Positions 2 to 20,385 of a stretch of 20,385 bases of DNA are shown piece after piece. The stretch is from a virus. The notes under the pieces are model-generated. The model did not search any database. It was given only the letters and a program-made list of their open reading frames with translations, and was not told where the DNA came from. The position numbers and the translations under genes are program-made. Each line of letters begins with the position of its first letter. The stretch's first letter is position 1. Location of the stretch: positions 1 to 20,385 of IMG/VR virus record IMGVR_UViG_3300025917_000062; one strand, 5' to 3'.

Positions 2-838
2 CGCGAGAGCGTAGCTTTCGCGCTGGCACGTGAGACGTGCCGCGCGCACATGACGCTGCCCGTGCCCATCTATGGCCTGTTGCTGTCGGACCTGATCGAG
101 CTTGGCCTCTACCGCCGGCCGATGGAGTGGCGGCCTTCGGCCGCCGATCGACCGATCCTCTGGGACGTTCTCTCCGACGCGCCGATGGCAACCGAGCACG
201 CCAACGCCCGCTTCTTCGTGCCCTTCCTCGCGCGCACCGGCTGGGCGCTGTTCACCGATGGTGACGTGCTGTTCCGCGACAATGTCTGCCGGCTGTTCGA
301 CCAGCTTGATCGCCGCAAGGCGGTCTATTGCGTGCATCACGACCATCGGCCGAAGGAAGATCGCAAGATGGATGGCCAGATTCAGACGCGCTATGCGCGA
401 AAGAACTGGACAAGCGTCATCGCCTTCAACTGCGACCACCCGGCGAACAAGGCTGGCCTGACACTCGATCTTCTCAACTCCGCGCCCGGCCGCGACCTTC
501 ACCGTCTGTGCTGGCTCGACGATGGCGACATCGGCGAATTGCACGCCGAATGGAATTGCCTTGTCGGCCACTCCGGCGAGGACGTGAACGCGAGAATTGC
601 GCACTTCACCAGCGGAGTCCCGGACATGCCGGGCTACGAGAATCAGCGCTACGCCGATGAATGGTTCAAGGCGCGCGAGGCATGGATACGCGGTGGAACA
701 AGGCTCTTGGTGGACTCATGGGATATGGGGATGAGATCATTGGCTCTGGCCTCGCCAAAGGCGCGGCCGAGCGCGGGGTGCGCATCGCCTTCGGGCAGGC
801 CGGCCGGATCATCTGGCACGCAACGAACGCCCCTTTAA
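2..838 (+). CDS. Glycosyltransferase (GT-A-like, DGD motif), 5' partial
   Basis: The frame is open to the left edge of the window. Residues encoded upstream of the first ATG (position 50), including a RESVAFALARETCRAH stretch, look like the normal N-terminal part of such enzymes, so the true start lies outside the window. The segment FTDGDVLFRD at 251-280 carries a D-x-D motif typical of the metal- and nucleotide-sugar-binding site of GT-A enzymes. Further on, a Trp-rich segment (CWLDDGDIGELHAEWNCLVG, about 511-570) resembles the acceptor-side region of phage-borne glycosyltransferases of GT8-like type. It presumably transfers a sugar from a nucleotide donor in the cytoplasm; substrate and acceptor are unknown. 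The last about 45 codons overlap the next gene by 157 bases and read like out-of-frame sequence, so the functional protein may end near 700. The family call is from motif recognition only. Confidence 0.7.
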   Translation, partial: RESVAFALARETCRAHMTLPVPIYGLLLSDLIELGLYRRPMEWRPSAADRPILWDVLSDAPMATEHANARFFVPFLARTGWALFTDGDVLFRDNVCRLFDQLDRRKAVYCVHHDHRPKEDRKMDGQIQTRYARKNWTSVIAFNCDHPANKAGLTLDLLNSAPGRDLHRLCWLDDGDIGELHAEWNCLVGHSGEDVNARIAHFTSGVPDMPGYENQRYADEWFKAREAWIRGGTRLLVDSWDMGMRSLALASPKARPSAGCASPSGRPAGSSGTQRTPL

Positions 839-1614
839 TTTTTCAGGGCAATCCTAACGTGGCGCCGCCCGGCTCCGAGCGTGGCGGTGGCCTCGAATGG
901 ATCGAGCACTACCCGGGCAGGCGCGTCTATTGCCGCCTGATCGAGCAAGGCGGCCGGAGGCGGTGGCATTTCAAGGCCGGGCAAATTCGCGCCGGCGAAT
1001 TGTGGTTGACGCAGAAGGAGCATGATGAGGCGGCTGCACTGACGGGCGATTCCGATCGGCTGGTCATCATCGAGCCGAACACCAAAGACAGCGCACCCAA
1101 CAAGCGATGGGGATATGATCGATACGCATCGGTCGCTCGATTACTGGCAAAGGCGGGCTATCGGGTGGCTCAATTCGCTGCCGGGGGGATGGCTCTTGCT
1201 GGTGTCGAGCAAATTCGGCCCCCGGGCTTTCGTCTCGCGTGCGCGGTTCTGCAACGCGCCCGACTGTACGTCGGACCTGAAGGCGGCCTGCACCATGCCG
1301 CCGCAGCGCTCCGCACACCCGCCGTCGTGATCTTCGGCGGCTTCATCTCGCCGACGGTCACCGGCTATCGCACCCAGCGCAACCACTTCGCCGGCGAAGG
1401 GCTGGGCTGCGGATCAATCGATCCCTGTGAGCACTGCCGCGCCGCTATGGACAAAATCAAAGTCTCGGCCATAGAGTGCGACGCCATGTCGCTATTGGAG
1501 GAAGGAGAGCCATGTCCGTCAGTCGCACCGTCGCCGCCCTTGTCGGAAGAGTCCCCGTCGGCTTTGTTGAAACGATCGCCATCCCGCAAGCTGAGGCGGT
1601 TCAATCGACCGTAG
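682..1614 (+). CDS. Glycosyltransferase family 9-like protein (heptosyltransferase fold)
   Basis: A 310-residue protein with GT-B features. It has an N-terminal GYGDEIIGSG loop (about residues 14-23), an EPN...NKRW segment opening the second Rossmann domain (131-143), and a GPEGGLHHAAAA motif (198-209) that corresponds to the donor-binding G-x-x-H-x-A region of ADP-heptose:LPS heptosyltransferases. Three Cys (243, 249, 252) form a C-x5-C-x2-C cluster near the C-terminus, as often seen in this family. It probably transfers a sugar to a growing glycan in the cytoplasm. ATG 682 was chosen over ATG 661 because the family-like sequence starts there; ATG 718 is a further alternative, and none has a well-spaced ribosome site. 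The start lies inside the upstream glycosyltransferase frame. The last about 34 codons overlap the next gene and are Ser/Pro/Arg-rich, unlike the rest. Confidence 0.72.
   Translation: MDTRWNKALGGLMGYGDEIIGSGLAKGAAERGVRIAFGQAGRIIWHATNAPLIFQGNPNVAPPGSERGGGLEWIEHYPGRRVYCRLIEQGGRRRWHFKAGQIRAGELWLTQKEHDEAAALTGDSDRLVIIEPNTKDSAPNKRWGYDRYASVARLLAKAGYRVAQFAAGGMALAGVEQIRPPGFRLACAVLQRARLYVGPEGGLHHAAAALRTPAVVIFGGFISPTVTGYRTQRNHFAGEGLGCGSIDPCEHCRAAMDKIKVSAIECDAMSLLEEGEPCPSVAPSPPLSEESPSALLKRSPSRKLRRFNRP
1497..1508 (+). promoter_or_regulatory. Strong Shine-Dalgarno site for the 88-residue gene
   Basis: The purine run GGAGGAAGGAG lies just upstream of ATG 1512 and inside the 3' end of the GT9-like gene. It decides the start of the small downstream gene at 1512 instead of the in-frame ATG at 1476. 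Confidence 0.7.
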
Positions 1615-1778
1615 TCGCAGCCATCGCCACCGCACTCGAACAACTGGCGGCCGAGCTTCGCGCGAACCCGGCCGTCATTGCGATCGACAAGGTCCAGATG
1701 CAGATGGCGCCGGCGATCCCGCGCCAGACAGGCGCGTCCTTCCAAGTCTCGATCCTGCTGACGGAGCCTTCGGCATGA
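1512..1778 (+). CDS. Small phage protein of unknown function (88 aa)
   Basis: An 88-residue protein with an Ala/Val-rich predicted helix in the middle (AVQSTVVAAIATALEQLAAEL) and a beta-like C-terminal half ending SFQVSILLTEPSA. There is no Cys, no signal peptide and no clear membrane segment. The start is set by the strong ribosome-binding site at 1497-1508. The gene starts 103 bases before the end of the GT9-like frame, and its stop overlaps the next start as ATGA (1775-1778), so it sits in the translationally coupled cassette. The family is not recognised. Its place between a glycosyltransferase and a methyltransferase suggests, but does not show, a role linked to glycan modification; a small structural protein is equally possible. 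Confidence 0.6.
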   Translation: MSVSRTVAALVGRVPVGFVETIAIPQAEAVQSTVVAAIATALEQLAAELRANPAVIAIDKVQMQMAPAIPRQTGASFQVSILLTEPSA

Positions 1779-2419
1779 AACAGGTCCGCGGTTTCTGGCT
1801 GCCCGACTATGAAGAGCACCTCGTCGACATGATCATGAACAGCCCGGAGTTTGCTGGCGGTCCGACCTATCAGTTCCACAAATTTCAACTGTGCTTCAAG
1901 TACATCAAGAATTTCGGCCTTGGTGTCGATATCGGCGGGCATTGCGGATTGTGGTCGCGGGTGATGGCAAAATGCTTCACCAAGGTGATCGCGTTCGAGC
2001 CGGTCGAAGAGCACGCCAAGTGCTTTCACGCCAACGTCACCGATGACAATGTCACGCTGCTGGACTATGCGCTCGGTGCGGGTGCGATCGACAGCGTGCG
2101 TCTGACCACCGGCAAAAATTCAAGTGGCGATACCTTCATCACCACGGACGGCGAGCACGAAGCAACGATGCGCACGCTCGACAGCTTCGACCTGCCGCGC
2201 GTCGACTTCATCAAGATCGATTGCGAGGGCTACGAAAACTTCATCATTCAGGGCGGTGCCAGCACCATCCGGAAATGGCGACCGGTGATGATTGTCGAGC
2301 AGAAGCCGGGCAAGGGCCGATCGTTCGGCTTGCGCGATCTCGCCGGCGTAGAGCTTCTGCAAAGCTGGGGCGCGCGGCTGGTCGAGAGCTACGCCGGCGA
2401 CTACGTGATGGCATGGTGA
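1775..2419 (+). CDS. FkbM-family SAM-dependent methyltransferase
   Basis: A 214-residue class I methyltransferase of the FkbM type. SAM-binding motif I is GVDIGGHCGLWS (about residues 50-61), the acidic residue that contacts the ribose is in AFEPVEEH (73-80), and the FkbM hallmark KIDCEGYE is at 147-154, followed by a VMIVEQKPG strand. FkbM enzymes methylate hydroxyls, usually on sugars or polyketides, so in this context a glycan O-methyltransferase is the natural reading. It starts four bases inside the preceding gene (ATGA at 1775) and its stop overlaps the next start (TGATG at 2417-2421). The full motif set and compact length argue for an active enzyme; the acceptor cannot be told from sequence. 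Confidence 0.88.
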   Translation: MKQVRGFWLPDYEEHLVDMIMNSPEFAGGPTYQFHKFQLCFKYIKNFGLGVDIGGHCGLWSRVMAKCFTKVIAFEPVEEHAKCFHANVTDDNVTLLDYALGAGAIDSVRLTTGKNSSGDTFITTDGEHEATMRTLDSFDLPRVDFIKIDCEGYENFIIQGGASTIRKWRPVMIVEQKPGKGRSFGLRDLAGVELLQSWGARLVESYAGDYVMAW

Positions 2420-2517
2420 TGCAGCACGACAGTCATTTGTGGAGCTATTATGCCGAGATAATCTGGCGCCGACTGCTGCCCAAGCACATGCGCGAAGCCT
2501 TGAGGCGCGGCTGGTGA
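2419..2517 (+). CDS. Tiny coupled gene product (32 aa), function unknown
   Basis: An ATG at 2419 overlaps the methyltransferase stop as TGATG, and its own TGA (2515-2517) is followed without a gap by the ATG of the next gene. The reading frame thus exactly fills the space between two genes. The product, beginning MQHDSHLWSYYAEIIWRRL, is rich in Trp/Tyr and basic residues and looks like one amphipathic helix. An alternative start at 2413 adds two residues. No family is recognised. It may be a real micro-protein or a leader that keeps ribosomes coupled across the cassette. Confidence 0.5.
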   Translation: MQHDSHLWSYYAEIIWRRLLPKHMREALRRGW

Positions 2518-3324
2518 ATGCTCTGGTGTTGCATCGAGCCGGAGCGCGAGGAGAAGACTGCCACCATCATGCAGGCGGTGGCGCACGGTTTCGGCGGTCG
2601 AACGTGCATCGGCGAGCCCCCGGACGATGGCGAGATGTTCATCGTCTGGGGGCAATTGTGGACCGCGCTCAAGGCGATCCAGAAGGCGCGTGAGACGGGA
2701 CGGCCGTATCTTCATCTCGACAACGGCTATGTGAAGCCGGCGCGCGGCATGCCGATTGGCTACTACCGCATCACCTATTGCTCGCCCGCGCCGATCCTGC
2801 TGGATGACCCGCCGAAAGCGAGGGTAAAGGTCCCGATGCACCCATGGCGGACGCAGGGCCGCCATGTGCTGATCGGCATCCCCGGCGCCGACTATGGCAA
2901 GGCGTGGGGCATGGACATGCAGGCGTGGCTGCGGACCTGCGTCACCATCCTGCGGCGGCACACCGAGCGGCCGGCCTACACCCGGCACAAGAAAAGCCAC
3001 ATGCCGCTGGCGCGCGACTTCCGCAATTGCTGGGCCGTCTACACCCATTCCAGCAACATCGGGGTTGACGCGGTGCTCGCCGGCATCCCGCTTTTCTGCG
3101 CCGAAACCAACCCGGCGGCGCCGGTCGGGAACATCGACATCGCCGACATCAGCCGGCCGGCCATGCCGGACCGGCAGCGCTGGTTCGACAGCTTAATGGC
3201 CCAGCAATACACCTTGAGTGAAATGCGCTCCGGCCTCGCCCGGGAATACGTCGGGGCGGTGATCCAACAAGCGAAAGCGAGCGCAGCATGTCAACCCAGA
3301 TCGCCTATGCTGACGGCAATCTGA
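2518..3324 (+). CDS. GT-B-like phage protein, probable glycan-related enzyme of unknown function
   Basis: A 268-residue protein. The segment VYTHSSNIGVDAVLAGIPLF (174-193) resembles the donor-site loop of GT-B or surface-carbohydrate synthesis proteins, where a Ser/Asn-rich turn precedes a helix and an A-G-I/V-P motif. It is followed by DRQRWFDSLMAQQYTLSEMRSGLA (218-241), a Trp/Gln/Thr pattern I associate with similarly placed phage proteins. The N-terminal half has Trp/Tyr-rich strands (FIVWGQLWTAL, PYLHLDNGYVK). The ATG directly abuts the preceding stop. Its end overlaps the beta-helix gene by 37 bases. A role in glycan transfer is inferred from this one motif and from the neighbouring glycosyltransferases; no catalytic residue can be named with confidence. 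Confidence 0.55.
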   Translation: MLWCCIEPEREEKTATIMQAVAHGFGGRTCIGEPPDDGEMFIVWGQLWTALKAIQKARETGRPYLHLDNGYVKPARGMPIGYYRITYCSPAPILLDDPPKARVKVPMHPWRTQGRHVLIGIPGADYGKAWGMDMQAWLRTCVTILRRHTERPAYTRHKKSHMPLARDFRNCWAVYTHSSNIGVDAVLAGIPLFCAETNPAAPVGNIDIADISRPAMPDRQRWFDSLMAQQYTLSEMRSGLAREYVGAVIQQAKASAACQPRSPMLTAI

Positions 3325-6300
3325 CCGGCTCGACCACCTTCAAGGCTGCGGAGACCGGCACATCCGCGCTCGCCATGGTCCGCGCCAACACCACGACACT
3401 TGCCTCGAACGCCAACGTTTCCTCGCCCTCCTTCACCATCACCAACGCCAAGGTGATCGAAGGCGTCATGCTGTTTTTGATGGCGAACCAAGCCGCGCCC
3501 GCCGGCACGCTTCTGGTCGAATTGCAGAAGAGCGGCACGACGCAGGCGAGCGTCACCGTCAACACGGCCGATCTTCCGCACAGCGCCACCGGCACCAACG
3601 ACGTGCTCGCCGTGGTGCCGTGCTTCTTCAAGTTTTCGTCCACGGCGACAGGCGATGGCGCGACCGGCTGGACCGTCAAGCTCACACTCAACAACACAAG
3701 CGGCAACGGCATCACTTATAGCCGCAACTCGGCGACCGCCGGCGACATGACGCGCGCGCTGCGCACGTCCACGGCCGGCGCGCCATCCGCCGCAGATGAT
3801 CTTTACATCCTCGGCGAACTGACCGGCCAAGGCACGCACAACGCCCGCGCCGTCACGATGGATTCGACGGCGACCACGGCCTACGGCAGCGGCACCGTCA
3901 ACTCGACCAGCGCCAACGGCGGCGGCATCCGGATTGCGTGCTACGGCACGCTGGCCTACGGCACCACCGGCTCGACCGCCTATAATCTTCGCGTCAATGG
4001 CGACGTGGAGGTGATGTGGAATGGCACGCTCGACATCGGCTCTTCAGGATCGGAGATTCCGCGATCGTCGGCGGCCGTGCTCGAATTGCAAATGGCCTCG
4101 GCCAATCTCGACTTCGGCCTGTTGGTGCGCAACCTAGGTGTGCTCAACATTGCAGGTCTCTCGCGCACTAGCGGCAAGAATGTCGCCAAGTGCAAGCTGA
4201 CCGCGGACCTTGCCGGCGCCACCGTCCTGACGTCGGGCCCTTCCGCAACAAATGCGACGAACACGCTGCTAGGCTCGCAGGACCCGACCGGCGTCTCGCT
4301 GCTGGCATCCTCGGTGGTCGACACGACCACGAACGCAACGCACAGCCTCGCATGGTCGGCGCCCAGCATCACCAACACCACCCAGACGGCGCAAGTCTGG
4401 CTCGCACGCGGGTCCGGCACCAACAACCGCTTCGTGCGGTTCTGCGTCGGCAATGCCACCAACTTCGCCAGCGTCACGAACGGCTTCTATGTCGACGTCG
4501 ACTTGTCGGCCGGTACGGTAGGAACGCCGACGGCGGTCGGCACGGGCGCGGCGACCAGCGCGTCCATCACGGCCGTGGGCGCCGGCTATGTCGTCACGCT
4601 GACCGGCAAGGTCGCCTCCGGTGCGGCAACGCCAAGCGTCCTGATCAACATCTGCTCGGCGTCTGGCACGACGAGCTTTGCCGGCGCCAACAATCAGGCC
4701 CTGATCTATGAGGGCGTGCAGCTTGTCACGGCATCCTCGATCTCGACCACGTTTAGCGTCGACACGGATACCGGCTGGCTTTCCGGCGACAAAGTCTGCA
4801 TCGCCGCGACCATGCGCACGCCCGGCGATAGCGAGGATTTCGTTCTCAGCGCTGATGCCGGCTCGACGTCCTTTGCCAGCGCGCTCTATCCGTTCGGCTA
4901 TGGTGGCCCGACCACCTCGATCGCCGGCACGCACAGCGGTACCTCGCCGACGCAGGCCGAAATCGGGCTGCTCACCCGCAACGTCAAGATCAGGTCGGTC
5001 TCTTCGTCGCTGTGGGGCTATGTGCAGGCCGAGCCGCTCGCAACCGTGAGCGCCTCATGGGCCGAGTTCTACTATCTGGGCGCCAACACCGTGAACAAGT
5101 ACGGCCTCGCGCTTTTCGGCGGCGCCGTCACCAACGCCAAGAGCGTTGCACATTGCGCGCTTCACGATATGTACGTCGGCTGCTACGTGGTCGGCGGCGG
5201 CCTGACGTCCGCCGGCGTGACGCTATCCAGCAACGTGGTGTGGAACACCACCTCGATCGGCATCGACATTTCAAGCACCATCGCCGACGGCGACTATTCG
5301 CTGGATGGCAACCTTGCGATCAAGACCGGCTCCTACGGCTACTTCCTCAACGATGGCGCATCGGGAACGATCACCAACAATGTCTCGGCGAGCTTCACCA
5401 CCTATGGCTTCAATGTTTCGTCCGGACTGACCGGCGCGGTCGCCATCGGAACATTCCAAAACAACACCGCGCACTCTGGCGCCGGAACTGGCATGCTGTT
5501 CTCCCCTTCCATCAGCTACGGCACGATTGATGGCTGGACGGCCTATCGCAACAGCACCGCAGGCATTCAATGCGGGACCGGCTCGATGTCGGACGCGCTC
5601 TTTACCAACCTGACGCTCTTCGGTAATGGCAACGGCATCCTCTTCGATAACGATGTGCTCAACATCTCGACTGGCGTCATCTGCGGAGACAGCAGCTTCG
5701 CGCAAGCCTCCGGGATTCTGATCACGGGCACGCTGGCCATGCGCATGAACCTTGCCAGCATCGACTTCAGCCCCGGCACTGGCATCTATGTCGCCAACAG
5801 CACAGCCGACATCAATTTCTCGATCAGCAATTGGCGGGTGCTTGTCGAGGCCTTCCTCAATGACTGCCACAATGGCACGACACCGCTGACCGGCAACGGC
5901 AGCACGAAGGCAAGCTGGTCAAGCGGCAGCTTCGTCGCCTATCAGGCCTACAATCAGACGGCCGGCGATCACCGCTTTGAGACGCTATATGGGCAACTGA
6001 AGACAGATACCTCGATCTTCAAGACGGCGTCACCCTCCATGCGCATGACGCCGAACGTCACGCCGGCAACGCCGGTAGCGTGGACCTTGCTCGCTCAGAC
6101 GACCCAGTATGGCGCCGGGCCCTCCACCGCGATCGACACCACCGATGCCGACCTGATCACCATCACCTCGGCCGGCGACCAGAGCGCGCCGTTTCCGAGC
6201 TTCACCGACAGCGAAGGCAACAGCTTTACCAACGCCCTTTCGTTCGACAATGGCAACGGCCGCATGAGCGGCGCGATCTATGTCTGCCAGAATCCTGTGC

Positions 6301-7064
6301 AGAGCGCCTCGCACACCTTCACCAAGAGTTCGTCCGCCGATGGCTCGTTTCAGGTGCAGGCATGGAAGGGGTCGTCAGGCGGCGCCAACATCGTCGACCA
6401 GACGATCCACGCTTCGTTTGTCGGCGGCACGGGGCAGACGGATTTCCAGCCGGGCAGCATCACGCCGACTGAAGGCAACGAGCTATTGCTTGTCTATCTC
6501 GGTCTTGACGATCCAGCCGACACCGGCTCGCCGCAGTTCTCGGCCGACAGCGGCTTCACCGTGCTCGATGCCTCAGACGTGGTCCCGGCCTCGAACTATG
6601 GTGGCGTCGGCGCCTACCTTGTGCAGACATCGCCGGCGGCCATTAACCCGACGATCACGCGCTCGAATGCGCTCGGCAGCGGCAAATCCGTCGTCATGCT
6701 GATGCTCTCGCTGCGCGGCGCGCCGCAGACGTCGGGCGCCGGGCGGCTGGAAAGCGCCTCGAAAGGCCGCGGCATCCAGAAGAAGGCAACGAATGGCGCG
6801 GCAACCAGCATCTCGGTTTGGGTGCGCACCTCCACGGTCGGCGACGGCGCCGCCTATAACGGCGACGCGCCGCGCCTGATCCAGCGCGCCAACGCGGCGC
6901 TCGGCGTGACCAATGACGTCGTGCTCGCCACCTCGGCGGGCTCGGCCGGCACATGGACGCAACTCACCGCGACCAGCAGCGTGCCGACCGACGATGGGGT
7001 GTGGGAGTTCGTTGTCGACTGCGACGGCACCGCCGGCTGGGTCAACGTGGATGACTGGACATGA
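3288..7064 (+). CDS. Large beta-helix surface protein with carbohydrate-binding-like modules (tail spike/fibre-like)
   Basis: A 1258-residue protein, very rich in Ser/Thr/Gly/Ala and poor in Lys and Cys. Residues 1-300 are beta-rich. Residues about 329-480 look like a lectin/CBM-type beta-sandwich common in phage fibres, with strands such as AQVWLARGSG and GFYVDVDLSAGTVG. Residues about 490-850 contain many short N-x-x-x-N and G-I-x-hydrophobic turns (e.g. GIDISSTIADGDYSLDGN), typical of a right-handed parallel beta-helix. Residues about 924-1150 appear to be an inserted domain. Residues 1151-1258 close with a second sandwich ending DGTAGWVNVDDWT. Such proteins bind or cleave surface polysaccharide, but no catalytic pair can be assigned. 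The ribosome site is weak (GAAAGCGAG), and the start overlaps the upstream gene by 37 bases. The position before the connector genes, not after the tail tip, is unusual for a receptor-binding protein, so a head- or neck-decorating role is possible. Confidence 0.7.
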   Translation: MSTQIAYADGNLTGSTTFKAAETGTSALAMVRANTTTLASNANVSSPSFTITNAKVIEGVMLFLMANQAAPAGTLLVELQKSGTTQASVTVNTADLPHSATGTNDVLAVVPCFFKFSSTATGDGATGWTVKLTLNNTSGNGITYSRNSATAGDMTRALRTSTAGAPSAADDLYILGELTGQGTHNARAVTMDSTATTAYGSGTVNSTSANGGGIRIACYGTLAYGTTGSTAYNLRVNGDVEVMWNGTLDIGSSGSEIPRSSAAVLELQMASANLDFGLLVRNLGVLNIAGLSRTSGKNVAKCKLTADLAGATVLTSGPSATNATNTLLGSQDPTGVSLLASSVVDTTTNATHSLAWSAPSITNTTQTAQVWLARGSGTNNRFVRFCVGNATNFASVTNGFYVDVDLSAGTVGTPTAVGTGAATSASITAVGAGYVVTLTGKVASGAATPSVLINICSASGTTSFAGANNQALIYEGVQLVTASSISTTFSVDTDTGWLSGDKVCIAATMRTPGDSEDFVLSADAGSTSFASALYPFGYGGPTTSIAGTHSGTSPTQAEIGLLTRNVKIRSVSSSLWGYVQAEPLATVSASWAEFYYLGANTVNKYGLALFGGAVTNAKSVAHCALHDMYVGCYVVGGGLTSAGVTLSSNVVWNTTSIGIDISSTIADGDYSLDGNLAIKTGSYGYFLNDGASGTITNNVSASFTTYGFNVSSGLTGAVAIGTFQNNTAHSGAGTGMLFSPSISYGTIDGWTAYRNSTAGIQCGTGSMSDALFTNLTLFGNGNGILFDNDVLNISTGVICGDSSFAQASGILITGTLAMRMNLASIDFSPGTGIYVANSTADINFSISNWRVLVEAFLNDCHNGTTPLTGNGSTKASWSSGSFVAYQAYNQTAGDHRFETLYGQLKTDTSIFKTASPSMRMTPNVTPATPVAWTLLAQTTQYGAGPSTAIDTTDADLITITSAGDQSAPFPSFTDSEGNSFTNALSFDNGNGRMSGAIYVCQNPVQSASHTFTKSSSADGSFQVQAWKGSSGGANIVDQTIHASFVGGTGQTDFQPGSITPTEGNELLLVYLGLDDPADTGSPQFSADSGFTVLDASDVVPASNYGGVGAYLVQTSPAAINPTITRSNALGSGKSVVMLMLSLRGAPQTSGAGRLESASKGRGIQKKATNGAATSISVWVRTSTVGDGAAYNGDAPRLIQRANAALGVTNDVVLATSAGSAGTWTQLTATSSVPTDDGVWEFVVDCDGTAGWVNVDDWT

Positions 7065-7795
7065 GCACGGCCTACGGTTGGACCCGCGGCCTCCCGGGCG
7101 GCCTGCCACAGGACGGTAGCCAGAAATACTGGCGCGACGGCCTGCCGCTCAATTACCCGCCCACGGTCTCGATCTATGACGAGGCGATCACGCTCGGCAT
7201 CGCGGTTGGCGCGTCCGCCGCGGCCACCATCGACATGGACGCCTCGATCAGCCTGCCGGCGGCCGTTGGAACCTCCACCGCGGCCGGCAACAGTGTCGAT
7301 GCCGGAATAGCCCTCGGCCTCGCTGCGGGGCTCGCTGGTAGCGCCTCCCTGTCCATGGACGAAAGCATCACCCTCGCCGCCGCACTCAGCCACAGCGCCA
7401 CGGCTGCCTTGGGGATCGACGTTTCCGTAGAACTGGACCTTGTCGCGGGGATTTCAGGTTCGGCCGGCCTCGTATTCGAGGGCGCGATCACGCTGGGCGT
7501 GGGCGTGGGGGCTTCCGCCAGCGCCACCGCCGACATGGCCGAAACGGTCCTATTCGCCGTCACGATGACTGGCGAGGCGGCCGCGGCAATGGAGATCGAG
7601 GCGGCGGCGACCTTGGCTGTCCATCTCGCCATGCGCGCCACCACCGGCGGCAAGCCGATCGGCACGGTCATCGCGCTACAGGGAACGGTAAGCAATCTTT
7701 ACAGCCTTGCCGGTATCAAATCGACCACCGCCGCGGTCGAGGGCGTTCTCGACGTCACGATCAGGCTTTCCGGACAGGTCGACCAACCCAACTGA
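7061..7795 (+). CDS. 20-residue-repeat phage protein (244 aa)
   Basis: ATG overlaps the beta-helix gene stop as ATGA. An N-terminal segment with two GLP motifs (GLPGGLP and RDGLPLNYPP, residues 10-34) is followed at residues 40-199 by eight contiguous units of exactly 20 residues. The pattern is roughly D/E-x-[AS]-I-[TS]-L-x-x-A-V-G-x-S-x-x-A-x-x-x-[MI]. A non-repeat tail (200-244) of beta character ends the protein. Composition is Ala/Gly/Ser/Thr with hardly any charged residues other than one acidic residue at the start of most units, which suggests a regular beta solenoid or a stack of beta-hairpins. There is no Cys and no signal peptide. No family is recognised. Coupled translation with the beta-helix protein and shared Ser/Thr-rich composition suggest the two act together on the virion. 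Confidence 0.65.
   Translation: MSTAYGWTRGLPGGLPQDGSQKYWRDGLPLNYPPTVSIYDEAITLGIAVGASAAATIDMDASISLPAAVGTSTAAGNSVDAGIALGLAAGLAGSASLSMDESITLAAALSHSATAALGIDVSVELDLVAGISGSAGLVFEGAITLGVGVGASASATADMAETVLFAVTMTGEAAAAMEIEAAATLAVHLAMRATTGGKPIGTVIALQGTVSNLYSLAGIKSTTAAVEGVLDVTIRLSGQVDQPN
7178..7657 (+). repeat. Eight tandem 60-bp coding units (20-residue repeats)
   Basis: Units start at 7178, 7238, 7298, 7358, 7418, 7478, 7538 and 7598. The period is exact at the protein level, with no indel across eight units. Units 1 and 6 are the closest pair (14 of 20 residues identical) while the others have diverged, which suggests old duplication with the fold maintained by selection. Confidence 0.75.
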
Positions 7796-7804
7796 GGGGC
7801 CAAG

Positions 7805-8368
7805 ATGAAAAACGTTCAATCCGCCACGTTTGGCCTCAAAACTGGCGCAGGGCTCGATGCCAAGGCCGCGGCGCCGATCGGTGGGATAGGCCTCAAGAGC
7901 AGCTATCATTTCGAATGCTTCGGCGCCGATGGCAAGCTGAAGTGGGAGGAGACGGCCGAAAATCTGGTTGTGAACGTCGGGCTCAATGACGTCCTCTCGC
8001 AATACTTCAAGGGTTCGAGCTACACCGCCGGCTTCTTCGTGGGCCTGAAGGACACCGGCACGATCGCCGACAGCGACACGATGGCCAGTCATTCGGGCTG
8101 GACGGAGGACACGACCTATTCCAACGCGACGCGGCCGGCCTTCACGCCGGGCTCGGTCTCCGGCCAGTCGGTCGACAACTCGGGTTCGAAAGCGGTGTTC
8201 AACATCAACGGATCGAGCACGATCTATGGTGCGTTCATGACGACATCGAGCACCAAGGGCGGCACCACCGGCGTGCTCTATGGTGCCGTCGACTTCGGCG
8301 CGCAGCGTTCGGTCGAATCCGGCGATACCTTGAACGTCACCGTCACGGCGACCGCGAGCGCTGCGTAA
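7805..8368 (+). CDS. Conserved phage structural-region protein, function unknown
   Basis: A 187-residue protein with an AGGGG ribosome site (about 7795-7799) ahead of ATG 7805. It contains YHFECFGADGKLKWEE (about 34-49), ENLVVNVGLNDVLSQYF (52-68), GFFVGLKDTGTI (76-87) and a C-terminal series of beta strands ending GDTLNVTVTATASAA. This combination recurs in small proteins of many phage structural operons (tryptic 'ECFG..GKLKW..N.V.N.GLN' pattern), which have no settled function to my knowledge; decoration or tail-associated roles have been guessed. The stop overlaps the next start as TAATG. The recognition is from memory of the pattern and not from a search. Confidence 0.65.
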   Translation: MKNVQSATFGLKTGAGLDAKAAAPIGGIGLKSSYHFECFGADGKLKWEETAENLVVNVGLNDVLSQYFKGSSYTAGFFVGLKDTGTIADSDTMASHSGWTEDTTYSNATRPAFTPGSVSGQSVDNSGSKAVFNINGSSTIYGAFMTTSSTKGGTTGVLYGAVDFGAQRSVESGDTLNVTVTATASAA

Positions 8369-8796
8369 TGCCGGGGCCGGCGACCAGCCAGACGGTGACC
8401 ATGTGGGCCGGCGACACGGTCACCATCTACATCCCCGTGCTCGATGACGACGGCAACGAGGTCGATCTCGGCGGCGCGACGGCAGTATGGTGGATGGGCA
8501 AGAGCGCGAAGGCCGTTCCGCCCGACGTCTACATCACAAAGCGAAGCGACCAGACGATGACGGGCGACGATGGCGTCACCCGTCCCCAGATCGAAATCGC
8601 CCATGAGACGGACCGCTGGGCCTTGTCGATCCACCTCAATCGCGCCGACACCGAGACCGGTGTCGGCTCCAACCCTCCGCCCAAGACCTACTACCACGAA
8701 GCCGGCATCATTGACGCCAGCGGCAACAAGGCTACGGTGACCACCGGCCCCTTCGTCCTCAACCCGGCGATCGGAGGCAATCAGGCCAATGGCTGA
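8368..8796 (+). CDS. Ig-like / BppU N-terminal-like phage protein
   Basis: A 142-residue all-beta protein. It starts with a GDTVTIYIPVLDDDGNEVDL strand pair (about residues 15-34), continues with a Trp-rich strand (TAVWWMGKS) and closes with YYHEAGIIDASGNKATVTTGPFVLNP. That is the usual pattern of phage beta-sandwich domains that resemble the N-terminal domain of baseplate protein BppU and of Ig-like attachment domains. Such domains attach fibres or decorate virions. The gene is coupled at both ends (TAATG at 8366-8370; eight-base overlap ATGGCTGA at 8789-8796). The fold is a motif-level guess; the exact role is not known. Confidence 0.5.
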   Translation: MPGPATSQTVTMWAGDTVTIYIPVLDDDGNEVDLGGATAVWWMGKSAKAVPPDVYITKRSDQTMTGDDGVTRPQIEIAHETDRWALSIHLNRADTETGVGSNPPPKTYYHEAGIIDASGNKATVTTGPFVLNPAIGGNQANG

Positions 8797-9202
8797 TCTC
8801 GACACCATTCGTGTGCTGGTCGGCGACGTCGACGACGGCTCCTCGACGCTCCTGATCGATGACGATTCCATCAACCTGATCGCGGCGAGCTACACCTCGA
8901 ACATCAGCGCGGCGGCGGCCGTTGCCGACGCGATTGCCGCGAAGTTCTCGCGCAAGGTCGACTTCCGCCTTGAAGGCCTGTCCTTTTCCAATTCGCAGAA
9001 GGCCAAGGCCTACATGGCGCTGGCGCAGCGGCTTCGCGTGCAGGCCAACAACGAGGATTCGAGCCAGATGGGCGTCTCCATCACCGGCACTTCGATCTCC
9101 GAAATGGATGGCGTGCAGGAGAACGTCGACCGTCCCGGCTCGCTGTTCAAGGTCGGCATGCAGCAGGACCCGGAGGTTGGCGGAGGTAACGACGCACAAT
9201 GA
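8789..9202 (+). CDS. Head-tail connector/adaptor protein (gp6-like)
   Basis: A 137-residue protein beginning with DLDTIRVLVGDVDDGSSTLLIDD. This N-terminal pattern, followed by an Ala-rich helix (AAAAVADAIAAKFSRKVDF, about 38-59) and SNSQKAKAYMALAQRLRVQA, is characteristic of the small helical adaptors (HK97 gp6 / phage connector type) that bind below the portal. The ring they form joins the portal to the head-closure protein. It is the first gene of the connector block and overlaps the next gene as ATGA (9199-9202). Length matches the family. Portal and capsid genes should lie to the left of the window. Confidence 0.75.
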   Translation: MADLDTIRVLVGDVDDGSSTLLIDDDSINLIAASYTSNISAAAAVADAIAAKFSRKVDFRLEGLSFSNSQKAKAYMALAQRLRVQANNEDSSQMGVSITGTSISEMDGVQENVDRPGSLFKVGMQQDPEVGGGNDAQ

Positions 9203-9567
9203 GCCTCGCGACCGACCTTCAGGACGATATCGGCGAACTGCTCGACGATCCGGATGTGGGGCGCGACATCACGATCACGCGCGATGTGCCGGGCACCTAT
9301 GATCCGGAAGACGGCTCGGTTGTGGAAACCGCGCCTCTCACATGGAAGACGCGCGGCCTGCTGCTCAACTACAATGACGCTCTGGTGAACGGCGAGGACA
9401 TCAAGCGCGGCGACCGGCGCCTGTATGTGAAGATCAAAAACACGACCTATGTCGCGGCGATCGGCGACAAGGTCGACGTCAAGACGGCGGTATTGACCGT
9501 CGTCAACTTCAAGACGATCGAGCTAACCGCGACCACCATCGTCTACATCTTGCAGGTCCGGCAATGA
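9199..9567 (+). CDS. Head closure / head-tail joining protein
   Basis: A 122-residue mostly-beta protein. The segment DITITRDVPGTYDPEDGSVV (about 23-42), then LTWKTRGLLLNYNDALVNGEDIKRGDRRLYVK, is the common layout of phage head-closure (stopper) proteins: an OB-like or beta-barrel strand pair, a flexible loop and a GDR(R)LYV strand. It is expected to sit under the adaptor ring and seal packaged DNA. Gene order (adaptor, closure, gp10-like, terminator, tube) supports this as strongly as the sequence. It is coupled at both ends by four-base overlaps. Confidence 0.72.
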   Translation: MSLATDLQDDIGELLDDPDVGRDITITRDVPGTYDPEDGSVVETAPLTWKTRGLLLNYNDALVNGEDIKRGDRRLYVKIKNTTYVAAIGDKVDVKTAVLTVVNFKTIELTATTIVYILQVRQ

Positions 9568-9974
9568 TCGGCGTGAATTTCGATCTCGACACGGTGATGG
9601 CCCAGCTTGATCACGCGCAGGACAAGCTGAAGGAGTTCGCCGTCGAGTTCATTCAGGACATGAACCAAGAGGTGGTCGAGAATACGCCCTACAAGACAGG
9701 CAACCTTCGCGGCTCATGGTACGCGGCCCTCAACGACATGCCGAATGCGGCGAACGGACCGCCCGACGCCGGCGGCGGCGCGGTCGCCCGGCTCAATCTC
9801 ACGGTGGCGGATATCAAGCTTGGCGACGTCTATTATGCGGTGAACGGCGCCAACTATGCCGTCTTCGTCGAGTACGGCACGGTCCACATGGAGGGGCGCT
9901 TCTTCGTGCAGAACACGGTCGGCAATGCACCTTCGATCGCGGCGGCGACGCTGGCAAGGATTGCCGAAACATGA
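9564..9974 (+). CDS. HK97 gp10-like neck / tail-completion protein
   Basis: A 136-residue protein with the signature of the HK97-gp10 family: a first helix (FAVEFIQDMNQEVVENTP), the motif TPYKTGNLRGSWYA (about 41-54), a beta segment and YAVFVEYGTVHMEGRFFVQN (about 100-119) near the C-terminus. Members lie between head closure and tail terminator in siphovirus operons and take part in joining the tail to the head. A Gly/Ala/Pro loop (NGPPDAGGGA) separates the halves. The gene overlaps the one before it and the one after it as ATGA. Confidence 0.82.
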   Translation: MIGVNFDLDTVMAQLDHAQDKLKEFAVEFIQDMNQEVVENTPYKTGNLRGSWYAALNDMPNAANGPPDAGGGAVARLNLTVADIKLGDVYYAVNGANYAVFVEYGTVHMEGRFFVQNTVGNAPSIAAATLARIAET

Positions 9975-10393
9975 CGATTGCACAGGACATCCGCGGCGCG
10001 CTTCAGGGCGTGCTAGATACCATCGACGGCTTCCCGCCGGCGAGCCAGCGCGGCTATGACGGCGTGGTGTTCTCGCCGACCGCCGGCATCCCGTGGGCGC
10101 GGATCAATCTGATCACCAATGCCGGCATGCCGTTCTCGCTCAATACCAGCGACGTCGAAGGCGGCTTCCTTCAGGTCAGCTACTTCTTTCCCGGGCCCAG
10201 CAAGGGCACGGCCGCGGCCGAGGCGATGGCGGACACGATCGCCAATGCCTACCGCGCCTTCTATCGCGGCGGCCTGTCGAAAGGCGCCGCACGGCTCTGG
10301 ATCGGCTTTGTCCGCCGCGGACCGCTGCTCCCGGACGCCGACTATATTCAGGCGCCTGTGCGGGTCGGCTGGCGCTGTTTAACGGCCTCTTGA
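9971..10393 (+). CDS. Tail terminator protein (DUF4128-like)
   Basis: A 140-residue protein starting at the ATGA overlap at 9971. It carries the pattern GIPWARINLI (about 38-47), then a beta segment FLQVSYFFPGPSKGTAAAEAMADTIANAYRAF, which matches the alpha/beta fold of tail terminators: a strand, a G-x-G-containing helix, and a final strand (PVRVGWRC). The protein caps the tail tube at its head-proximal end and sets its final length with the tape measure. The conserved longer frame upstream of 9971 is only a shadow of the gp10-like gene. After it comes a 93-base gap before the tail tube gene. Confidence 0.78.
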   Translation: MTIAQDIRGALQGVLDTIDGFPPASQRGYDGVVFSPTAGIPWARINLITNAGMPFSLNTSDVEGGFLQVSYFFPGPSKGTAAAEAMADTIANAYRAFYRGGLSKGAARLWIGFVRRGPLLPDADYIQAPVRVGWRCLTAS

Positions 10394-17057: not shown

Positions 17058-17683
17058 CCCTGACTGTCTTCACACAACTCCCGGATTCGGTCGCGCTCGG
17101 CGCGCAAGTCTCCTTCATGCCATCGACGGCGAAGAACCCAAGCGAGAGCGGCAACAATAACCGCTTCTCGCTGCGCCCGATCAAACGGAATTATACCGTC
17201 TCGATCAGCCCAGACGATTCGGATGAGATGCAGGCCATCATCATGGCTCTCTTGGGCGATCGCTTCCCGCTCGCCATGCGCGACTACGCGGCCTATCAGG
17301 TCACTGCGGAGGATTGCCAGTTCGACAATCTCACCGGCGATTGGCTGATGGGCCGAACATGGGCGCCATCAACCGGCAATTTCCAGTTCTTCGAGCGCAT
17401 CCTCGTACCCGAAAGCATGGTGGTGTCGCTCAATGGATCGCCGGCGACGACATCGAGCTACGCCATCAGCGACTTCGGCCGCATCCAGTTTTCCGGCGGT
17501 GTCACGACAAGTGACACGGTCTCTATCACCGGCACCTACCTGACGCCGGTCGCGCTCATGGACGCGCCGGCCCTGCAACTATTCGGCTCGATCGGGGGCG
17601 TCCCGCAATCGCAGTTTTCATCCATGCGATTCGAGCAGCTTTATGAGAAAGAACTGATCGACATCTTGGCGGAGGCGACGTGA
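17054..17683 (+). CDS. DUF2460 / TIGR02217-family distal tail protein (GTA g12-like)
   Basis: A 209-residue protein starting at the ATGA overlap with the tape measure. The N-terminal LPDSVALGAQVSFMPS matches the LP-x(5)-GA opening of the family. Then follow RFSLRPIKRNYTVSISPDDSDEMQAIIMALLGDRFPLAMRDYAAYQV, FFERILVPESMVVSLNG and a C-terminal FSSMRFEQLYEKELIDILAE. In gene transfer agents and related phages this is the distal tail protein that docks the tube to the tip hub. It is followed directly by the DUF2163 gene, as in the RcGTA order g12-g13. Confidence 0.82.
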   Translation: MTLTVFTQLPDSVALGAQVSFMPSTAKNPSESGNNNRFSLRPIKRNYTVSISPDDSDEMQAIIMALLGDRFPLAMRDYAAYQVTAEDCQFDNLTGDWLMGRTWAPSTGNFQFFERILVPESMVVSLNGSPATTSSYAISDFGRIQFSGGVTTSDTVSITGTYLTPVALMDAPALQLFGSIGGVPQSQFSSMRFEQLYEKELIDILAEAT

Positions 17684-18741
17684 GGGACATTCCTTTTTCC
17701 CAGAATGCGAGAGGGCTTGAATATGCGATCTCGATCACCCAGCCGAATGAGACCATCCGCATCGTTACTGGCGTTGACGACATCATGCTCAACGGCCTGC
17801 TTTACGAGGCGCGCAACTCGCTCAACGTGACCCAGATCGCTTTCTCGGCCGATGGCACGGCATCCAACGCCGACGTTCGTATCTCGGCCTCGCAAACCTC
17901 GGTGCGCCCCGGCATCGGCGCCCGCGGCCTGATCGATGGCCTGCAAATCACCATCGAGCTTTACGACCCGCGCCACCCCGAGCTTGGTACGGTCGACATG
18001 ATGCCGGGCGCGACGATCGGCAGCGTGTCCGAAGACACCAATCGCATCATCGTGTTCGCCGTGCAGGGACCGTTGTCCGGCCTCAAGGCGCCGATGTGCG
18101 AGGTGCATACCGTCGTCTGCCGCGCGCGCCTTGGCGACGCGCGCTGCAAGGTCCCGCTTGCGGTCGACGATGTCGCGCGCAACACCGCCTATTTCAAAAA
18201 GGACACCAACAGCAGCCTGACTGCCGGCCCATGGGATACGTGGGCTCGCAAGCAGGAAGGCGGGAGCTACAACGACCGTGTCTATGAATGCACCACCGCC
18301 GGCACCACGGCGGCGACCGCTCCGACCTATCCAACCACGATCGGCGATACCGTCACCGACGGCACAGCCGTGTTCACATGCCGGCAGGCATGGCTATGTG
18401 CTGCGAGCGGCGAGGCGCTGGACTTCTTCAACATCCAACTGGACGCCGACCCCTCCATTGATGTTGCGGTCTCTCCCAACTTCACGCTCGGAAACATCAT
18501 CCCGCGCACCGGCGACCTGAAGGACACGCTGATACCGATCAAGTTCTATGATCCGGACACCTTCATCGTGACGACATGGCAGCCCTTTGCGCCCAGCAAC
18601 TTCCCGAGCGGCACCGTCTTCGAAATCCATCCCGGTTGCGACCGCCTCATGACGACATGCATCAACACTTTCAACAATCTGAACAACTTCAGGGGCACGC
18701 CCTACGCCCCAAACTCTGACCTACAAACCGGGAGGGCATAA
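17680..18741 (+). CDS. DUF2163 / phage BR0599-family tail tip protein (GTA g13-like) with inserted module
   Basis: A 353-residue protein with GTG start at 17680 (TGA of the previous gene overlaps; GGAGG at 17671-17675 gives a good ribosome site). Hallmarks are CEVHTVVCRARLGDARCKV (about 144-162) and the C-terminal HPGCDRLMTTCINTFNNLNNFRGTPYAP (about 322-348). Both are Cys-containing motifs of this family, in GTA thought to bind an iron-sulfur cluster within the tail hub. Between them, residues about 168-236 form an extra module (TWARKQEGG...RVYECTTAGTTAATAPTYP...DGTAVFTC) that resembles the sugar-binding-type modules repeated in other phage proteins. With it the protein is longer than the usual 270-300 residues. 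Confidence 0.85.
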   Translation: MRDIPFSQNARGLEYAISITQPNETIRIVTGVDDIMLNGLLYEARNSLNVTQIAFSADGTASNADVRISASQTSVRPGIGARGLIDGLQITIELYDPRHPELGTVDMMPGATIGSVSEDTNRIIVFAVQGPLSGLKAPMCEVHTVVCRARLGDARCKVPLAVDDVARNTAYFKKDTNSSLTAGPWDTWARKQEGGSYNDRVYECTTAGTTAATAPTYPTTIGDTVTDGTAVFTCRQAWLCAASGEALDFFNIQLDADPSIDVAVSPNFTLGNIIPRTGDLKDTLIPIKFYDPDTFIVTTWQPFAPSNFPSGTVFEIHPGCDRLMTTCINTFNNLNNFRGTPYAPNSDLQTGRA

Positions 18742-20385
18742 ATGTCCTACGCAGACGACCCGGTCACCTACTCGACGAATGCCCAAGGCCAGACTGTGGC
18801 GACGTGGACCGGAGGGCCGAACCCCGGCACATTCGTCTATGAGCAAGACCAGCCGAACGGAAACTATGGTTGGGACAAGATTGTCACGGCCACGCCGACC
18901 GGCCCGATCGCCCCGCCGGCGCCGACCCCGGTCGCGCCGCATCTTCAGTTTTCCAATGCAACGATCGGCAGCAACATCTTCCTGATGTACGGCGATTGCC
19001 GGCTGCCCGGGCAGATCGCATGGGCTCCCGGGATCGACGCCACCAACAATGTGCTCGACACATCCTTCCTCACCTTTATGACCGTGTACGGCGAGCCGCT
19101 CGACCCGAGCGAGTCCGTCGAGATCGCGAGCATGTCGGCGAACGGCACGACGTTCTATCAAAGCGGAGGCGTTGTCACGGTCGACAATCTCTCGGCCGAT
19201 GCACAGGCCGCGCTCGCGACCAGCGTTGCAACCATGGCAGTCTATACCGGCAGCGAGACGCAACTGCCCGATCCGACCATGGAGGACTATCTCGGTGTCG
19301 GCAACGTGCCGGCCTATCGTGGTCTTCGCTACATCGTCTTTCAGGACTTCCCGATCGAAATCACCAACGGCGCCGTCCCGAACATCATCGTTGAATGGCG
19401 GCGCACTGGCGGCTTGCTCAACGTCTCGGATGTTATGGCCAAGCTGATCAACCGGGTGAACTGGCGCTCGCAATATGCCCAGTCTCGCGCCACCATCTTC
19501 TTCGGAGCGCCGACGATCGATGGCATCGACGATCTTTGCCAAGGGATTCAGGTCACCTCGCAAAGCTCGCTGCTCGACCACCTCAACAACCATCGCAACC
19601 TCTACAATTTCCAGATCAAGGAAGAGAATCCAGTCAAGGTCGTGCGGCGCGCGGTAGCCTCTGATCTTGTCATCGACATCTCCGTCAATGAGGCGGACCT
19701 TGCCGTCGATAGTGGAGCACCTGCACTCACGACCAACCGCGCCAACCCGGCCGACTTTCCTGTCGGCTTGAACCTGTCCTATTGCGATCCTGATCACGCC
19801 TTCGACATCAAGGTAGCGCCGGCCGTGTTCGATGGTACGGCGCCGGGAAGGTCGACGGCGACATCATCCGCCATCCTCACGGCGCAGATGGATTACGTGG
19901 TCGACGCCACGACCGCGCGAACGATCGCTTACAATGCGATGTTCGACCTGCGATCGTATGCCGCCCGCGCACAGCTTGTTCTCAAAGACCTTCGTGCCGA
20001 GGTCGGCGACGTGGTGGCGGTGACCACCGCAAACGGCGATGAGTATGTGCTCTTGGTCAATCAGCAGACGATCACCAAGACGCGGTCGAATGCGATGCAG
20101 TGCCTGCAACTGTTGTCGGCCGCCGGCGGCGACGTCAACGGCGATGGCGGCAACGATGGCGGCTCGGCAACCCGGCTGCACTGGCCCGACGAAGTGACGC
20201 GACAAGACATCATCGCGACTGCGGACAAGATTTACACGACCTGCGACAGCCTCGGCACGGTCATCAGCTTCAACCTCCGCGACACTCCGTTGCGCAAGGT
20301 CACCAAGAGCAAGTGGCGCAATCTGGGGCAGATTGACCCGAATGGTCTCAACTGGGGTGGCGATGCCTTCTACCTTGAGATCGGC
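18742..20385 (+). CDS. Tail hub / host-specificity protein (GTA g15-like or gpJ-like), 3' partial
   Basis: The ATG at 18742 directly follows the TAA of the DUF2163 gene; GGGAGG at 18730-18735 is the ribosome site. The frame is open for 548 codons to the right edge. After a Pro/Thr-rich N-terminal part (residues 45-66), the segment NVPAYRGLRYIVFQDFPIEITNGAVPNIIVEW (about 187-218) is the characteristic PAYRGLxYVVFxDFPL region of phage tail hub proteins. It is followed by ANPADFPVGLNLSYCDPDHAF and a LKDLRAEVGDVVAVTT strand pair. This protein forms the baseplate hub and often carries the host-binding end. Function beyond the hub cannot be judged because the C-terminus is missing. Confidence 0.8.
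   Translation, partial: MSYADDPVTYSTNAQGQTVATWTGGPNPGTFVYEQDQPNGNYGWDKIVTATPTGPIAPPAPTPVAPHLQFSNATIGSNIFLMYGDCRLPGQIAWAPGIDATNNVLDTSFLTFMTVYGEPLDPSESVEIASMSANGTTFYQSGGVVTVDNLSADAQAALATSVATMAVYTGSETQLPDPTMEDYLGVGNVPAYRGLRYIVFQDFPIEITNGAVPNIIVEWRRTGGLLNVSDVMAKLINRVNWRSQYAQSRATIFFGAPTIDGIDDLCQGIQVTSQSSLLDHLNNHRNLYNFQIKEENPVKVVRRAVASDLVIDISVNEADLAVDSGAPALTTNRANPADFPVGLNLSYCDPDHAFDIKVAPAVFDGTAPGRSTATSSAILTAQMDYVVDATTARTIAYNAMFDLRSYAARAQLVLKDLRAEVGDVVAVTTANGDEYVLLVNQQTITKTRSNAMQCLQLLSAAGGDVNGDGGNDGGSATRLHWPDEVTRQDIIATADKIYTTCDSLGTVISFNLRDTPLRKVTKSKWRNLGQIDPNGLNWGGDAFYLEIG

Follow-up and report, generated by a model that had tools for sequence, protein, structure and literature searches.

A glycosyltransferase and methyltransferase cassette in the head gene block of a soil phage, a probable virion glycosylation module

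Why would a phage carry sugar-transferring enzymes within its head genes, and which surface would they decorate? IMG/VR record IMGVR_UViG_3300025917_000062, a linear sequence of 20,385 bases from one soil phage, was analysed over its complete length (the window), and gene calls and searches identified four cassette enzymes at positions 2-3324, all on the + strand. An initial annotation, made from the DNA letters, had considered virion modification the likelier purpose, and the present analysis agrees. This glycosyltransferase and methyltransferase cassette lies within an operon tied to head and connector genes. It is probably a late-expressed virion glycosylation module, by which phages would cover their own virions with a methylated glycan. 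This reading is favoured because of the head-block position of the genes in unrelated phages, the soluble enzymes and the lack of membrane components among them; the glycosyltransferase genes lie in or next to the structural block, an arrangement expected of a phage virion glycosylation system. Virion glycosylation has been documented in few phages, and if the module does glycosylate virions, glycan coats would be a common trait of phages in soil and freshwater, made by an enzyme set of their own. The cassette is listed below; G003 is a 62,290-base relative carrying the same enzyme genes.

2-838, + strand: GT-A glycosyltransferase (GT-A) with a GT8-like fold, phrog_28018, truncated at the 5' end; recognised by a fold match and an invariant DxD
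718-1614, + strand: GT9-family glycosyltransferase (GT9) with a GPEGGLHHAAAA motif, PF01075; the open reading frame (ORF) as listed starts at 661, homology at 718, putting the true start at ~718
1512-1778, + strand: small ORF, frame open from 1476, with a weak G003 counterpart (42896-43171) in the matching place
1775-2419, + strand: FkbM-family S-adenosylmethionine (SAM) methyltransferase (FkbM), presumed sugar O-methyltransferase, PF05050 and TIGR01444
2518-3324, + strand: GT-B glycosyltransferase (GT-B), KpsC-like fold in the predicted structure; QxxxD nucleophile and (K/R)xHP motif absent

Occurrence among unrelated head modules

An alignment scan with GT-A retrieved relatives in at least 580 viral stretches and in 58 genome contigs. 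Eighty of these viral stretches were taken further, and genes were called and clustered in 143 loci. By head module, 29 viral loci are of the HK97 type, 15 of the podovirus type and eight of the phrog_1005 type, while 30, many of them short, are unassigned. These modules are unrelated, being built around a phrog_1005 major head protein, an HK97-type protease/major head protein with portal, and a phrog_9953 podovirus set, respectively. In the typed loci, GT-A is located between the major head protein or portal and the connector or tail genes. HK97-type loci start with the protease-major head protein, portal, a collagen-like protein, MptE and GT-A, followed by GT9, two methyltransferases, a second glycosyltransferase, GT-B and the adaptor; the podovirus-type order is portal, major head protein, cement-like protein, GT-A, MptE-methyltransferase and tail genes. 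Wherever a structural gene was recognised in a viral locus, the closest one shared its strand with the cassette (58/58), at a median distance of 896 bp. In seven loci, the last 1-47 nt of GT-B are also the first of a head-tail adaptor (cluster 56) or connector-block (cluster 96) gene.

In the GT-A tree, built from metagenomic contigs with quick-tree support values only, at least seven head-module changes are counted versus a shuffled mean of 18.9, indicating that head modules are partly inherited. The same tree indicates that the gene has moved between modules, because the 99%-supported clade with the window holds all three types. This repeated placement in unrelated head modules is informative whichever target the enzymes have.

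No tyrosine integrase was found in 18 of the 25 long contigs and no serine recombinase in 24 of them, fragments included, a further point in favour of the virion reading. In Mesorhizobium jarvisii LMG 28313 (L016), what looks like a prophage has the cassette placed between its major head protein and portal genes. A divergent GT-A homologue is also present amid conserved chromosomal genes of Roseibium/Labrenzia/Stappia (L039-L050 and L072), apparently outside any prophage.

Gene organisation and upstream region

The initial annotation had described two glycosyltransferases, an FkbM enzyme and a GT-B-like protein as one coupled run leading into surface and connector genes, and this description holds. 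All four are present, and several frames overlap: the GT-A frame overlaps GT9, and the small ORF between GT9 and FkbM, an addition to the initial gene list, overlaps FkbM by 4 nt. Further downstream, GT-B and the beta-helix gene have 37 nt in common, the beta-helix gene and the next one (7061-7795) 4 nt, and the connectors start at 9199. Overlaps of this kind between adjacent genes typically fit a single transcript. A possible tiny ORF (2413-2517) fills the gap between FkbM and GT-B, its stop codon abutting the GT-B start. The genes following the cassette are:

3288-7064, + strand: surface or fibre protein of beta-helix type, accessory and not conserved along with the cassette
7061-7795, + strand: 20-residue-repeat protein with a G003 counterpart (31% identity)
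7805-8368, + strand: phrog_8123 protein, conserved in G003 (71%)
8368-8796 and 8789-9202 (phrog_1732), + strand: two conserved genes ahead of the connectors
9199-10393, + strand: head closure Hc1, Neck1 and tail terminator genes

The second pre-connector gene (8789-9202) lies directly 3' of GT-B in the related contigs L106 and L146. Downstream of the tail terminator, the window encodes a major tail protein, a chaperone, a tape measure and hub proteins; the tail hub genes (17680-20385) have relatives among the gene-transfer-agent-type tail proteins of alphaproteobacterial phages.

All four enzymes are syntenic in G003 and in the relative L005, with 59-74% amino-acid identity. Compared to relatives, the ratio of non-synonymous to synonymous polymorphism (pN/pS) lies at 0.32-0.54 in the cassette genes and at 0.19-0.51 in the structural genes taken as controls. 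The cassette is thus under purifying selection, similar to the adjoining structural genes, and its conserved synteny together with these ratios argues that it is not a chance assembly. Proteins ~99-100% identical to parts of the window are encoded in three other metagenomes (L002, L003, L162), so this phage recurs. An exact 29-mer scan found no contig overlapping the window upstream.

What precedes GT-A can be seen in G003, where a scaffold/cement protein, the major head protein (phrog_1005, E 1.6e-78), an MptE-like gene, GT-A and GT9 are followed by a class I methyltransferase, a small gene, FkbM, GT-B and then the surface proteins and connectors. The class I methyltransferase is absent from the window. 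Since an MptE-like gene is present in G003, L005 and L073, the window's own genome would be expected to have one just beyond the 5' edge. In relatives, the gene 5' of GT-A matches PF01973 above the cut-off in a fusion (L101) and below it in L122 and L016; the L005 copy has no Pfam match, and NCBIfam returned no match for the MptE-like gene. Its nearest known counterparts are Maf/MptE-like (DUF115) and GT42 sialyltransferase-like enzymes; the product is a predicted enzyme, and the corresponding gp126 of phage CcrColossus is labelled sialyltransferase-like in GenBank.

Predicted functions of the cassette enzymes

The GT-A frame is open from 2 to 838 and shares 74% identity with a complete 268-aa G003 protein, from which it follows that ~22 N-terminal residues are lost at the contig edge. 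The aspartates of its DxD do not vary across 57 relatives. No Pfam glycosyltransferase family was matched, and a model of the complete G003 homologue (pLDDT 90.4) matches GT8-type enzymes, with LgtC at Z 16.9 (root-mean-square deviation (rmsd) 3.6, 206 aligned). On the model, GT-A is a GT8-like GT-A-fold glycosyltransferase with a DxD. Its frame (50-838) overruns the end of its homologues (~731) by ~35 codons, through the GT9 start, as either a natural extension or a frameshift.

GT9 scores 42.6 bits for PF01075 (cut-off 22) and is 59-65% identical to the G003 and L005 copies. The NCBIfam equivalogs for lipopolysaccharide (LPS) heptosyltransferases I, II and III gave 25.6 bits against a cut-off of 134.6, and lower. 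FkbM scores 53.9 bits for PF05050 (cut-off 22.7) and 74.7 bits for TIGR01444 (cut-off 37.7), with 62% identity to the G003 copy; as bait it returned no confirmed viral relatives. FkbM enzymes methylate small molecules and sugars, and this one is presumed to methylate a sugar hydroxyl. None of the core enzymes has a transmembrane segment (top 19-residue hydropathy 1.36).

The GT-B-like protein has no Pfam match. Its model (pLDDT 93.9) has a GT-B fold with KpsC as the top match (Z 11.6, rmsd 4.6, 217 aligned), followed by WbbB (Z 10.1), KrkA (8.8) and UDP-GlcNAc epimerases (8.8), and weak sequence similarity to KpsC is found in two collinear stretches. Among the matches listed, no family is closer than KpsC/WbbB, and the absence of others there is no evidence against them. 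The overall fold is thus common to GT-B and the retaining transferases of beta-3-deoxy-D-manno-oct-2-ulosonic acid (Kdo), KpsC (GT107), WbbB (GT99) and KrkA (GT140). However, these families are defined by a QxxxD nucleophile and a (K/R)xHP motif (PMC10148158, PMC12887879), both lacking in the window protein. At the expected domain start (~112-135) there is no QxxxD, the only one being at 220, and the (K/R)xHP motif, which binds cytidine monophosphate (CMP), is absent, with RHKK at 156-159. An RxHP near the equivalent place occurs in only 6 of 48 GT-B family members. A canonical Kdo transferase was therefore rejected, the fold agreeing and the catalytic motifs missing; because of these missing motifs, the enzyme perhaps follows a different mechanism, and its donor may differ from theirs.

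Proposed pathway and sugar supply

In the proposed virion glycosylation, the MptE/sialyltransferase-like enzyme would begin the glycan on at least one protein of the head or neck. GT-A, GT9 and GT-B would extend it with sugars drawn mostly from host nucleotide-sugar pools, and FkbM would methylate it. A virion protein as acceptor, the order of the steps, MptE as initiator, the sugar identities and a sugar as the methylation target are what we infer from the gene set. If correct, the module would contain glycosyltransferases with donors still to be named and a possible protein-glycosylation initiator outside flagella.

In line with this proposal, nucleotide-sugar supply genes are present in some relatives. 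KdsA is encoded in L134 (354 bits, equivalog cut-off 242) and in L117, and the KdsB-like cytidylyltransferase of L134 scores below the NCBIfam cut-offs; in both contigs these genes adjoin tandem GT-B genes, suggesting phage-encoded supply of CMP-Kdo. The order there is KdsB-like cytidylyltransferase, cupin and KdsA, directly 5' of the GT-B genes (L134:3429-5151, L117:2795-4577). In L097:17267-20200, a Gfo/Idh/MocA oxidoreductase, a hexapeptide transferase and a DegT aminotransferase are found 3' of the cassette. No supply genes of these types were found in the window.

A more specific version, unlikely as a whole, is a mobile protein-glycosylation system of Alphaproteobacteria phages. An MptE/sialyltransferase-like enzyme would attach a CMP-ulosonate (Kdo-type) sugar to a protein of the capsid or neck, GT-A, GT9 and KpsC-fold enzymes with methyltransferases would build a methylated LPS-core-like glycan, and the module would settle beside the head-neck genes of unrelated blocks. 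If true, the module would be widespread and would move between unrelated head gene blocks.

Comparison with known systems

Phage virion glycosylation itself is already known: as summarised in PMC11256854 and PMC12619734, a glycan on the capsid protein was reported for mycobacteriophages Che8 and Rita (Freeman 2023). As proposed here, phage-encoded glycosyltransferases are involved and virion proteins are the proposed targets. The initial annotation had pointed to such glycosylation in actinobacteriophages, with the genes next to structural genes. The placement is weakened by Maravista, an F1 phage related to Che8, in which the glycosyltransferase genes lie near the 3' genome end (PMC11256854), whereas the window cassette, described from its genes, is inside the head block.

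A second parallel is chlorovirus PBCV-1, in which A064R and A061L are capsid N-glycan enzymes, combining, like the cassette, a GT-A-fold glycosyltransferase with a methyltransferase capping the capsid glycan (PMC9614988). Foldseek lists domain 1 of A064R (2p6w) as one of the matches to the GT-A model (E 3.5e-5). However, PBCV-1 is a eukaryotic virus with fused domains and rhamnose, and the likeness to GT-A is one of fold.

Among cultured phages, a similar run of MptE-like, GT-B, GT-A and GT9 genes is carried by the Caulobacter jumbo siphophages C1 and CcrColossus. In C1 it consists of gp162 (MptE), gp163 and gp164 (GT-B), gp165 (GT-A), gp166 (a methyltransferase of cluster 8) and gp167 (GT9); in CcrColossus, gp126-gp131 include the MptE-like gene, two GT-B genes, GT-A and GT9. 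Hidden Markov model E-values range from 3e-51 to 2e-76 for GT-A, GT-B and GT9 and from 2e-43 to 9e-47 for MptE. Both runs differ from the window in lying 3' of tail genes and 5' of lysis genes instead of between head and connector, in their duplicated GT-B and, for C1, in the methyltransferase; most of the genes are annotated as hypothetical. The words 'glycosyl' and 'sialyl' do not occur in the paper describing CcrColossus, and the link of these phages to the cassette appears undescribed in the searched literature. No description of this enzyme set, its head-connector placement and its spread as one system was found in the open-licence literature, which is a weak negative.

Alternative explanations

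Several observations weigh against virion glycosylation. No acceptor stands out, as the three modules have unrelated major head proteins and the cassette does not depend on a beta-helix protein. No structural gene was recognised beside GT-A in some contigs (e.g. L097, L115, L149), and in Pelagibacter phage Mosig the glycosyltransferase/methyltransferase run adjoins nucleotide-metabolism genes and not structural ones. Operon membership shows timing, not target, and GT9 enzymes classically act on LPS, which makes a host-surface target possible.

Late masking of the host surface is the main alternative, though a somewhat unlikely one. The enzymes would alter sugars of the LPS core, the capsule or the S-layer on the infected cell, which would either keep progeny from being lost to debris or shut competitors out. 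The heptosyltransferase family membership of GT9, the Kdo synthesis genes of some relatives and the Caulobacter phage runs directly 5' of lysis genes are consistent with this. On the other hand, no polyprenyl-linked initiator, flippase, polymerase or membrane segment was found among the core genes, GT9 scores far under the LPS heptosyltransferase cut-off, and GT-A is repeatedly placed among the head genes of unrelated modules. The membrane flippase and polytopic glucosyltransferase of Gtr-type serotype conversion were not found among the core enzymes either. The initial annotation had reasoned that a superinfection function would be expressed in lysogeny, so that late coupling favours the virion. 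The late location does favour the virion, without proving it, because masking of the surface can operate late in the lytic cycle as well.

That the cassette specifically glycosylates the beta-helix and 20-residue-repeat proteins is very doubtful. The initial annotation had named these as likely acceptors, and its sequence observations on them were confirmed: the beta-helix protein contains 24% Ser+Thr, and the 20-residue period of 7061-7795 gives autocorrelation peaks at 20 and 40. The 37-nt overlap with GT-B also speaks for this idea, as does L073, which has kept both cassette and beta-helix gene. However, the proposed co-occurrence failed in both directions. No cassette genes were found in the DNA fetched around four beta-helix relatives (L159, L160, L161 and L163; 44-51% identity). 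Conversely, GT-B runs straight into the connector block without a beta-helix gene in L106 and L146, HK97-type loci carry the cassette without it, and an unrelated protein occupies its slot in G003. The beta-helix protein was thus rejected as an obligate partner.

Glycosylation of modified phage DNA bases against restriction is highly improbable, since the cassette lies among head and not replication genes, FkbM enzymes act on small molecules and sugars, and a thymidylate synthase/hydroxymethylase-like gene was found in one of 25 long contigs and not in G003 (the contigs may be fragments, and the window's own genome spans just 20 kb). DNA-hypermodifying glycosyltransferases have been reported in phages (Pyle 2024, cited in PMC12619734). 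The probability left by the virion, host-surface and DNA readings goes to others.

Further genes in related loci

In G003, the slot 3' of GT-B holds a protein (L012:4717-5976) whose N-terminus looks Hint/intein-like by eye and ends in HSYIVDGITVHN-A; it has no obvious catalytic Cys at its start and no Pfam or NCBIfam match. A GDP-mannose 4,6-dehydratase lookalike, also judged by eye, is part of a podovirus cassette (L077:4695-5654). On a phrog_1005-type contig, a radical-SAM-like CxxxCxxC stretch lies shortly 3' of GT-A (L123:6803-7534).

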